This document shows positions 5,743 through 64,000 of a stretch of DNA of 64,000 nucleotides, piece by piece. Under the pieces are notes generated by a model. It saw nothing but the letters and a program-made list of their open reading frames with translations, had not been told where the DNA came from and ran no database searches. Every line of letters starts with the position of its first letter. Within the stretch, counting starts at the first letter, position 1. This DNA is from Nitrosomonadales bacterium (GTDB lineage Bacteria > Pseudomonadota > Gammaproteobacteria > Burkholderiales > Gallionellaceae). The stretch is taken from the NCBI GenBank assembly GCA_016214695.1, contig JACRNY010000001.1:930001-994000 (forward strand). Reading direction: 5' to 3'. Made by a program: the position numbers and the translations under genes.

Positions 5743-6354
5743 ATGTCCGGCAACCTTTTCATCGTCAGCGCGCCTTCCGGAGCCGGCAAGACCAGCCTGG
5801 TCAGCGCGCTGCTGAACATCAACAGGCAGATCGCTCTTTCCATCTCCTACACCACGCGCGCACCGCGTCCTGGCGAGACCAACGGCAAGGAATACCACTT
5901 CGTCAGCCGCGAGATGTTCCTGGAAATGGCGAAGAACGGCGATTTCCTCGAAAGCGCCGAGGTCTATGGCAATTTCTACGGCACCTCGCAGCCCTGGATC
6001 GAGAAACAGCTCGCCGACGGGCACGACATCCTGCTCGAGATCGACTGGCAGGGTGCGGCGCAGGTGCGCAAGCTGATGCCGCACGCCATCTCCATCTTCA
6101 TCCTGCCGCCGTCGCTGGCCGCGCTGGAGACGCGCCTCAAGGGCCGCGGGCAGGACAGCGCCGAGGTCATCGCGCGCCGTCTGCAGGCCGCCCAGGAGGA
6201 CATCTCCCATGTGGCCGAGTTCGACTATGTTATTATCAACGACAAGCTGGACGAGGCTCTGCAGCAGCTCGCCGCGGTGATCACCGCCGCCGGGCTGCAT
6301 CGCGACAGTCAACTCTCACGTCACGCGCATCTCATCAATCAATTGCAGAAATAG
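5743..6354 (+). CDS. gmk: Guanylate kinase
   Basis: Phosphorylates GMP to GDP with ATP. The product is 203 residues. The P-loop APSGAGKTSL is at about residues 8-17, the GMP-binding segment SYTTRAPRPGETNGKEYHF follows, and IDWQGAAQVR carries the conserved Asp. It is preceded by the box AGGAGAA. It lies in the order yicC-gmk-rpoZ-spoT, linking GDP supply and ppGpp metabolism. Confidence 0.98.
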   Translation: MSGNLFIVSAPSGAGKTSLVSALLNINRQIALSISYTTRAPRPGETNGKEYHFVSREMFLEMAKNGDFLESAEVYGNFYGTSQPWIEKQLADGHDILLEIDWQGAAQVRKLMPHAISIFILPPSLAALETRLKGRGQDSAEVIARRLQAAQEDISHVAEFDYVIINDKLDEALQQLAAVITAAGLHRDSQLSRHAHLINQLQK

Positions 6355-6363
6355 GAGCACACC

Positions 6364-6570
6364 ATGGCACGTATCACCGTCGAAGATTGCATGAAGTTCA
6401 TCCCCAACCGTTTCGAATTGACGCTGTCCGCCGCTTATCGCGCACGCCAGCTGGCTAACGGTGCCGGCTACCTGGTCGAGAACACCAAGGACAAGGCTAC
6501 CGTCGTCGCCCTGCGCGAGATCAGCGAAGGCAAGGTCGGTATCGAGATCCTGAACCGCGGCATGGCCTGA
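6364..6570 (+). CDS. rpoZ: RNA polymerase omega subunit
   Basis: Small subunit that helps fold beta' and carries part of a ppGpp-binding site in proteobacterial polymerase. The product is 68 residues, starting [19 protein letters not shown] and containing the typical [11 protein letters not shown] segment. It is 9 bp behind gmk. A hairpin terminator lies immediately downstream, so part of the transcription probably ends here and spoT is reached by readthrough or its own promoter. Confidence 0.97.
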
Positions 6571-6576
6571 TTTAGT

Positions 6577-6600
6577 GCCGCCTGAGCTTTTTCAGGCGGC
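6577..6600 (+). terminator. Hairpin terminator between rpoZ and spoT
   Basis: A perfect 9-bp stem, GCCGCCTGA with TCAGGCGGC, around a T-rich loop, followed by TTATCTGTCT. It lies 6 bp after the rpoZ stop and 18 bp before the spoT start. The T-tract is imperfect, so termination may be partial. Confidence 0.7.
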
Positions 6601-62166: not shown

Positions 62167-63654
62167 ATGCTGTCCCCCATCACCGAACAGGAATTCCAGG
62201 CCCTTGCCAAACAGGGCTACAACCGCGTCCCGCTGGTCGCCGAAACCTTCGCCGACCTCGACACCCCGCTGTCGCTCTACCTCAAGCTGGCCAACCGCCC
62301 TTTTTCCTATTTGCTCGAATCGGTGCAGGGCGGCGAGCGCTTCGGTCGCTATTCCTTCATCGGCCTGCCCGCCGACACGCGCATCACCGTGCGCGGCGAC
62401 CAGGTCACGCTGACCCAGGACGGTCATGAGACGACAGAAGCCTGCGACGACCCGCTGGCTTGGATCAAGCGGTTCCAGTCGCGCTTCAAGGTCGCGCCGC
62501 TATCCGGCCTGCCGCGCTTCACCGGCGGCCTCGCGGGCTATTTCGGCTATGACACCGTGCGCTACATCGAGCCGCGCCTGGCAAAGACAGTGAAGAAGGA
62601 CACGCTCGGCACGCCCGACATCCTGCTGATGCTGACCGAACAACTGGCGGTGGTGGACAACCTCTCCGGCAAACTGACCTTCATCGTCTACGCCGACCCG
62701 GCGCACGACGATGCCTATGCCCTCGCCCGCGAACGCCTGCGCGAACTGATCGGCATGCTGCGCCTGCCCATCGACATCCCGTTCGCGCCGCCCGCCCCGC
62801 GCGAGGAAGCAAAGTCCGAATTCGGCGAGAGCGCCTTCAAGGCGGCCGTGGAAAGATCCAAGCGCTACATCTTCGACGGCGACATCATGCAGGTGGTGCT
62901 GGCGCAGCGCATGTCGCAACCCTTCCCGGCATCGCCGTTGTCGTTGTACCGCGCACTGCGCAGCATCAACCCGTCGCCCTACATGTTCTATTACGACATG
63001 GGAGACCACCATGTGGTCGGCGCCTCGCCGGAGATCCTGGCGCGCCTGGAAGGCGACACCGTCACCGTGCGTCCCATCGCGGGAACACGCCCGCGCGGCA
63101 AGACGCCCGATCAGGACAAGGCGCTGGAACAGGAACTGCTGGCCGACCCCAAGGAACTGGCCGAGCATCTGATGCTGATCGACCTCGGCCGCAACGACAT
63201 CGGCCGCGTGGCCGAGCGCGGCACGGTAAAACTCACCGACAAGATGGTGATCGAACGCTACTCGCATGTGATGCACATCGTCTCCAACGTCGAGGCCAGG
63301 CTGAAGCCGGGGCTGGATGCCATCGACGTGCTGAAAGCCACCTTTCCCGCCGGTACCGTGAGCGGCGCCGCCAAGGTGCGCGCGATGGAGATCATCGACG
63401 AACTGGAACCGAGCAAACGCGGCATCTATGCCGGCGCGGTCGGCTACCTCGGCTTCAACGGCGACATGGATGTCGCCATCGCGCTGCGCACCGCCGTGGT
63501 CAAGGACAAGATGCTTTACGTGCAGGCCGGCGCGGGCATCGTCGCCGACTCGGTGCCGGACAGCGAATGGATGGAGACGCAGAACAAGGCTCGCGCGGTG
63601 TTGCGCGCGGCGGAGATGGTGCTGGACGGGCTCGACGCCCAGTCGCACCGCTAG
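62167..63654 (+). CDS. trpE: Anthranilate synthase component I
   Basis: Converts chorismate to anthranilate, using ammonia from the TrpG glutaminase. The 495-residue protein has the tryptophan-feedback segment [20 protein letters not shown] near the N-terminus and the catalytic core [27 protein letters not shown] and [18 protein letters not shown]. The stop TAG is embedded in the AGGAGG ribosome site of the next gene, the usual trpE-trpG coupling, but trpG is interrupted (see next feature). Confidence 0.96.
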
Positions 63655-63663
63655 GAGGACACC

Positions 63664-63744
63664 ATGCTATTGATGATAGACAACTACCTTTCAAATCCAA
63701 CCCAATCTTGTTTTATCCTGCAATCATTGCAATTCCATTATTAA
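63664..63744 (+). pseudogene. trpG: trpG 5' end, cut off by an integrated element
   Basis: Nine bp after the trpE stop, with AGGAGG in front, ATG 63664 opens with MLLMIDNY, the standard first eight residues of TrpG. The family continues DSFTYNLVQYF; here it changes to LSNPTQSCFILQ and stops after 26 codons. The base composition turns AT-rich at the same point. The rest of trpG is not in the window. If the element recreates the target at its far end, an intact trpG may exist there but away from trpE. Confidence 0.88.
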
Positions 63745-63811
63745 ATAGTTAGATAAGTGCACTTTTCGGTCAAATTCGCAAAATAAATATCCTTTAGCAA
63801 CCCCTCAAATA

Positions 63812-63830
63812 GGTGGTAAATTGGTGGTAA
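63812..63830 (+). repeat. Direct repeats upstream of the integrase
   Basis: GGTGGTAA occurs at 63812-63819 and 63823-63830, 11 bp apart (one helical turn), about 22 bp before the integrase start. They may be arm-type binding sites for the integrase or an operator controlling it. Confidence 0.5.
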
Positions 63831-63852
63831 TTTAAGCCTTCTATACCGCCAA

Positions 63853-64000
63853 ATGAAGCCCTCCAAGTCGCTTACTCACTCGACAATTCTCGCTGCAAAA
63901 CCAAAGGACAAACCGTACAAGCTGTCCGATGCCGACCGCCTGTACGTGCTAATTACCGTGGCAGGAAAAAAGTATTGGAAGTGGAACTACAGATTAGACG
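63853..64000 (+). CDS. P4-type tyrosine integrase, N-terminal part (runs off the window)
   Basis: ATG 63853 starts MKPSKSLTHSTILAAKP, followed by YKLSDADRLYVLITVAGKKY and WKWNYRLD. This is the N-terminal arm-binding domain (DUF4102-like) of phage P4/CP4-57-type integrases that insert genomic islands and prophages, usually at conserved gene ends. The 49 residues visible are clear; the catalytic Arg/His/Tyr domain is beyond the window. It is transcribed in the same direction as trpE, reading away from the junction. Confidence 0.88.
   Translation, partial: MKPSKSLTHSTILAAKPKDKPYKLSDADRLYVLITVAGKKYWKWNYRLD

Follow-up and report, generated by a model that had tools for sequence, protein, structure and literature searches.

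A genomic island at the start of trpG in a Nitrosomonadales bacterium, and the related integrases that use the same site

The right-hand edge of the stretch of DNA analysed here (the window, 64,000 nucleotides, G000:C2:930001-994000 of a 2.66-Mb genome) raises the question of what has happened to trpG, which begins in its proper place behind trpE, keeps eight codons, and then gives way to DNA of lower G+C content that carries an integrase gene. A sequence-only reading of the window proposed that an integrated element has the first codons of trpG as its target. The answer depends on what lies past the window edge, which was followed in the 20-kb locus L002 (G000:C2:993001-1013000; window position = L002 position + 63000). 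The features of the two ends are as follows.

62167..63654, + strand: trpE, intact, the left flank of the island (open reading frame of 495 amino acids)
63653..63659, + strand: native trpG ribosome-binding site AGGAGGA, now stranded to the left of the island (from sequence)
63664..63687, + strand: attL, the native first 8 codons of trpG, ATGCTATTGATGATAGACAACTAC (MLLMIDNY), 24 bp; identical to the empty site of G024, with 1 difference from that of G071
63807..63828, + strand: 11-bp direct repeat AAAT(A/T)GGTGGT, present as a pair near the integrase; probably arm-type sites for that enzyme (from sequence)
63853..64000, + strand, continuing to L002:2121 (65121 in window numbering): tyrosine integrase gene (PF13356, PF22022 and PF00589 above their cut-offs)
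L002:13637-14206: full trpG at the far end of the island, open frame
L002:14203-15219: trpD, directly after the far-end trpG, open frame

At the left junction, the last 217 amino acids of trpE have 92-94% identity to trpE of G071 and G024, two genomes of the same genus in which the site is empty. AGGAGGACACC stands before the ATG of the trpG stub at 63664, and the G+C content falls from 0.66 to 0.42 after the stub ends at 63687. The gap between the stub and the integrase ATG at 63853 is 165 bp, and not the 109 bp first given for it. The integrase has 422 amino acids, in which Pfam finds arm-binding (DUF4102-type), core-binding and catalytic domains. The catalytic residues of tyrosine integrases are R, K, H, R and Y; R259, K286, H358, R361 and Y394 are invariant in 19 rows of the trpG group of integrases described below, and H384 is nearly invariant.

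The full trpG at the far end starts 12,973 bp from the start of the stub and begins ATGTTATTGATGATCGACAACTAC GACTCC. Its first 24 bp match the stub at 22 positions; the differences, at bases 4 and 15, are both synonymous. A direct repeat containing the 15-mer ATGATAGACAACTAC had been predicted; the exact 15-mer occurs once in the genome, and it is this imperfect repeat that is found at the far end. Of the full trpG with trpD and trpC that had been expected there, the trpG-trpD part is present, and trpC lies elsewhere in the genome. A degenerate pattern for the eight codons of the trpG start occurs twice in the genome (0 occurrences for a reversed control), and in an order-wide scan it was found in 264 of 399 genomes, with at most two occurrences per row of the scan; chance is no serious alternative for the two copies. 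Measured in 500-base steps, the G+C content is 0.66 to the left of the island and 0.42-0.62 within it; between the far junction and L002:19500 it is 0.61-0.66. Approximately 5 kb past trpG, at L002:19501-20000, it is 0.45, which may indicate a second foreign stretch.

In the same-genus genomes G071 and G024, which are the relatives lacking the island that had been proposed for comparison, trpE leads directly into trpG. This empty site and the two junctions confirm the integrated element, and the stub MLLMIDNY behind trpE, with its second copy at the far end, confirms the first codons of trpG as the target. We therefore hold with high confidence that the feature at the window edge is the attL of a 12.97-kb island which was inserted at the trpG start by its own P4-type tyrosine integrase, and at whose far end the reading frame is restored.

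That the case is an isolated one, as the sequence-only reading implied, is contradicted by the sites of related integrases. A related integrase was found at E <= 1e-30 in 190 of the 399 genomes of an order-wide search, and 110 loci, composed of 30 from a longer match list and the best 80 of 246, were labelled by their upstream DNA. The trpG label required a 24-base stretch with at least 17 positions matching the trpG start within 320 bp upstream, and the RNA label required a tRNA or tmRNA within 750 bp, with precedence given to the trpG label (which mattered for L018). By these definitions 56 of the 110 loci have a trpG-start fragment, 32 have an RNA gene (26 tRNA, 6 tmRNA) and 22 have neither. 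The threshold score of 17 is reached by 2 of 2200 mononucleotide-shuffled stretches, and it is the exact score of 6 of the 56 trpG loci. In 49 of the 56 the distance from the start of the fragment to the integrase is 160-190 bp, the overall range being 158-285 bp. Some of the 22 unlabelled loci can be recognised as trpG cases by eye (L134, L159, L163-L165), and two pairs (L167; L174 = L021) have just a TGATCGA core in common with trpG. The two nearest relatives of the window integrase, at 82% identity (Sulfuricella sp. T08, G014) and 69% identity (G277), belong to other families and each stand behind a trpG stub; the trpG fragment in G277 is not behind trpE. At oriented position 2866 of L127 (G265:C176), a trpG stub ending YD-stop is preceded by a right-end-like leader, an arrangement that resembles two tandem elements.

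A class-wide search of 369 genomes with a profile of the trpG group produced 54 matches at E <= 1e-120 in 42 genomes, from which 30 loci were fetched, one of them the window's own; two genomes of the further loci, G015 and G093, are also among the 399 order-wide genomes, and were not among the loci of that search. For the 29 further loci, the type of the nearest relative corresponds to the site in nearly every case: each of the four whose nearest relative is of the trpG type shows a trpG-like start (three score 19-20 and one scores 16, just below the threshold), and of the 25 whose nearest relative is of the RNA type, 24 are within 750 bp of a tRNA or tmRNA, none being recognised at the remaining one, and none of the 25 scoring 15 or more for trpG. 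On viral contigs, 36 of the 80 loci returned had some upstream DNA; 12 of these score at least 17 and 9 have a tRNA, which indicates that predicted viral contigs also use the trpG site. The best integrase matches in plasmid and phage collections were under 60% identity, the best listed being about 40%.

The integrases themselves divide according to target. The tree contains 105 of them (the 110 loci minus four present in both sets and one truncated), and the trees, which were quick ones computed without bootstrap, are unrooted and so do not give the direction of a target switch. All 32 rows with an RNA site lie on one side of a branch with 100% support, and all 53 trpG rows lie on the other side, together with 20 unlabelled rows. 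Because a single branch separates the two kinds of site, one target switch would suffice. When the integrases of P4, Sf6 and epsilon15 were added, P4 and Sf6 joined the RNA group (34 rows, support 100) and the trpG rows stayed separate; epsilon15 forms a very long branch whose placement is unsure. Within the non-RNA part of the trees the trpG rows do not make up a single clean clade, since unlabelled rows fall among them: the label changes 13 and 11 times in the two trees, compared with 35-36 times in shuffles.

Of the alternatives to a trpG-specific site, the one that survives best is that the integrase sees any TGATCGA-like core, and that trpG predominates only through its conservation. L167 (GTGATCGA) and L174/L021 (CTGATCGA) speak for it: within approximately 170 bp upstream of the integrase these loci have trpG-type element ends beside a flank which shares only TGATCGA with trpG, and their sequences look as if secondary sites had been used. 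A 7-bp core alone, however, should scatter the elements genome-wide, and at least 17 of the 24 bases of the trpG start are present in 53 of the 73 non-RNA tree rows, so we consider this explanation unlikely.

A second alternative accepts the insertion and supposes that trpG function was lost or replaced, the host being a tryptophan auxotroph or having another glutaminase. This was one of the two outcomes that the sequence-only reading allowed, and the window alone, which contains just the eight-codon stub, is compatible with it. It is refuted as to the gene by the open, full trpG and trpD at the far end, and the presence of trpC elsewhere also counts against it. The TrpG protein is 97% identical to the TrpG of same-genus G071, whereas the trpG-trpD DNA is 89.8% identical, as expected for a trpG kept under selection. 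A TrpG query on the host's own genome gave a single match at E <= 1e-50, a search for the glutamine-amidotransferase family gave six matches in the whole genome, and the far-end TrpG is the only TrpG-type glutaminase found. Loss or replacement of the function is therefore very improbable.

It could also be supposed that the copies of the trpG start arose by local duplication, or by target duplication of the transposon type, which likewise leaves short repeats at both ends, and that the integrase is a chance neighbour. At base 15 of the trpG start, G071, G024 and the left copy have A and the right copy has C. This pattern implies a native left copy and a right copy derived from the element at least through base 15, and a right copy that departs from the native sequence is not what duplication would produce. 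The recurrence of the same junction 158-285 bp from related integrases in 56 loci, and the matching repeat pairs at both ends of the element, reduce the probability of duplication to a negligible level. An assembly artefact deserves equally little credence, because the junction and the far end are on one 1.27-Mb contig of a genome that is 99.97% complete and 0.21% contaminated, and the same type of junction occurs in independently assembled genomes such as that of Sulfuricella sp. T08.

Island insertion by a dedicated integrase can be examined further in the complete elements, nine of which are bracketed on single contigs: seven of 5,992-12,973 bp, and two of 42,282 and 52,812 bp (G326, G249). 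In the window island, one 11-bp repeat pair, AAATNGGTGGT, lies beside the integrase and a pair of the same kind lies at the right end (L002:13549-13570). The repeat pairs vary between elements (GGTGGTAA, GCGGGTAT, CCGGGTAC, CCGTGTAA, CCGCACA) and agree from left to right within each; the right-end pair of G249 was only third best in the scan. In the nine elements measured at both ends, which are the seven small islands together with G014 and G277 (whose ends are on separate contigs), the members of a pair are spaced 11-12 bp, and the distance to the core is 113-137 bp for the pair on the integrase side and 63-79 bp for the other pair. The P4 attP record has six annotated arm repeats, four of which make up two pairs with a spacing of 12 bp, one on either side of the core at distances of about 112 and 53 bp. 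To judge from sequence, the attP of the trpG islands thus appears to be laid out like that of P4, in that pairs of arm repeats flank the core left and right at comparable distances; the P4 core is the end of a tRNA gene, whereas the core of the trpG islands is the start of a protein gene.

The sequences of the ends suggest how the insertion would proceed. The integrase would recognise the highly conserved trpG start as attB, and the attP of the circular element would carry a leader, a ribosome-binding site, an ATG and about the first five trpG codons. Crossover at about codon 5-6 (bases 15-18) would then exchange the gene starts, leaving the host trpG start behind trpE as a 24-bp stub and fusing the element's start to the remainder of trpG at the far end, where the frame would be re-created with synonymous changes only; excision would presumably reverse these steps and yield the circular form. 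In all seven small islands, codons 1-5 of the stub and the restored start are identical or differ synonymously, and the stub of G249 carries a non-synonymous change. The left stub of another element, at locus L157, leaves the trpG sequence at base 18; if one crossover point is common to all elements, it would be located at bases 15-18, within codons 5-6. The integrase is a member of a large group that stands apart from the tRNA- and tmRNA-site integrases, consists mostly of trpG users, and has retained a P4-like attP layout. An apparent co-occurrence of the occupied and the empty site within one population, in MAG G324, was rejected, because its two trpG regions (C353 and C194) are 77% identical and represent two organisms mixed.

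The exchange of gene starts bears on the expression of trpG, because the leader and ribosome-binding site of the restored gene come from the element. Anti-SD pairing is -10.2 kcal/mol at the native site, compared to -4.0 at the site supplied by the element, and when seven such pairs of sites are compared, it is the native one that pairs more strongly in six and the element's in one (L173). The other outcome allowed by the sequence-only reading, restoration of trpG with a new promoter, stands as to the restoration (full trpG-trpD). As to the promoter, a search for sigma-70-like sequences in the right end of the window island found none (0, as against 0.9 in shuffles), and in a scan of nine right ends the best scores were reached by 22-100% of shuffles. 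In the window island a restriction gene with the orientation of trpG stops about 200 bp short of it, with no terminator-like site between, so that read-through into trpG is possible. Four of the seven small islands (L133, L136, L156, L173) have a last ORF of at least 90 amino acids that is opposite to trpG, and a transcription start near the right end therefore seems to be needed there.

The concern that uncoupling trpE from trpG is costly is weakened by the other genomes of the family. Of 12 that were examined, 10 have no trpE in the 1.5 kb upstream of trpG, so the two genes are often apart in any case; the same-genus genome G217 also lacks a trpE at that distance from trpG. A related integrase or a stub was looked for in 20-kb stretches of eight of these genomes and in 12 stretches from other families, with none found, and separation elsewhere in the family has apparently come about by routes other than these islands. 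In G115, G251 and G190 (loci L122, L119 and L120) trpE is 2.6 to 10.4 kb from trpG. These were considered as island cases and rejected, there being no related integrase or trpG stub in the stretches looked at; they may represent an earlier insertion at this junction, or one of another kind.

The cargo of the window island includes, besides the integrase, a second tyrosine recombinase, a RadC-type protein, a zinc-ribbon protein, a SocA/Panacea-type protein, a match to the replication-initiator family Rep_trans that is below the family cut-off, and a type III restriction-modification pair whose mod and res genes are adjacent, open frames (MTase_III 9.6e-191, REase_III 1.9e-224). The Pfam scan covered 10 of the 12 island ORFs of 90 amino acids or more, the other two being of 115-154 amino acids. 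Among the 10 scanned there are no relaxase or conjugation genes, as an integrative and conjugative element would have, and no P4-type alpha primase/helicase, as a P4-like satellite would have; two related islands encode DUF3987 proteins, one with a primase domain. The Xer-like tyrosine recombinase overlaps the RadC-type gene (L002:5058-6029 / 5927-6598, or 68058-69598 in window numbering), which may mark a nested element. Any Pfam match at all was obtained for 6 of 30 proteins from other islands. Defence genes were rejected as a common cargo, because PADLOC matches were confined to the window island (two of five proteins tried) and were obtained for none of four proteins from three other islands.

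The closest known system is that of the islands and prophages at the 5' end of dusA, which according to the published account carry an integrase, have imperfect direct repeats (21-bp consensus), and replace the start of the gene, the product of which is probably still made (PMC4482086). The trpG islands are like those described there in that the 5' end of one conserved protein gene is replaced with the frame kept. The target differs, being dusA in the one case and trpG in the other, and the likeness is in the way of working. The same account reports putative promoters before and after insertion (PMC4482086), whereas none was found at the right ends of the trpG islands.

As regards the integrase, the IntSXT (DUF4102) subgroup is described as having target-specific clusters, namely P4 and Sf6 at tRNA genes, epsilon15 at the guaA 3' flank, and SXT at prfC (PMC8138268); trpG is absent from the main text of that paper. 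The integrase of the trpG islands resembles this subgroup in having the same kind of N-terminal arm domain and relatives that share one target gene. Its rows lie apart from P4 and Sf6 in the tree, from which the SXT integrase was left out, and no tRNA or tmRNA was found in the 20-kb locus L002; by target, it is not in the P4 tRNA cluster.

The trpE-trpG junction is also occupied in other bacteria. An R/F pyocin cluster lies between the two genes in Pseudomonas aeruginosa, and the junction is called a pyocin integration hotspot in two papers (PMC8609362, PMC13075995), the latter of which reports the cluster to be without an integrase; a predicted P. aeruginosa prophage includes trpG in a third (PMC12456005). 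The pyocin cluster is at the same gene junction as the trpG islands. The neighbour of trpG in Xanthomonas arboricola is reported to be a large cluster and, in a different strain, a type I restriction region of 8 kb, possibly at the same site (PMC4686621). The text on the TIGER/Islander database assigns 43.4% of about 1.75 million islands to protein genes and does not name trpG (PMC12424338); there may well be trpG cases in its island table. Full-text searches of one open-access library brought up no paper seen to name trpG as an integrase target.

The finding means that, among the best-known integrases of genomic islands, a large branch has the start of a biosynthetic gene and not tRNA genes as its site, the attachment-site design being otherwise kept, so that the trpG and RNA-site integrases form a natural sister-group pair for the study of site choice. 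The trpG stub behind trpE provides a ready marker for finding islands, and the trpG start might serve as a landing site at which genes can be inserted without loss of the target gene. More tentatively, and with considerable doubt on our part that it holds, the trpG start may be a standing, dedicated site for a group of islands and prophages which, through the leader, ribosome-binding site and first codons that they bring, take over the expression of the only TrpG-type glutaminase found here, serving tryptophan and probably folate synthesis, and which could then be lost only by precise excision. The same proposal may also explain the tailocin clusters at trpE-trpG in Pseudomonas, and it offers a testable idea for why this junction is a hotspot in other bacteria.
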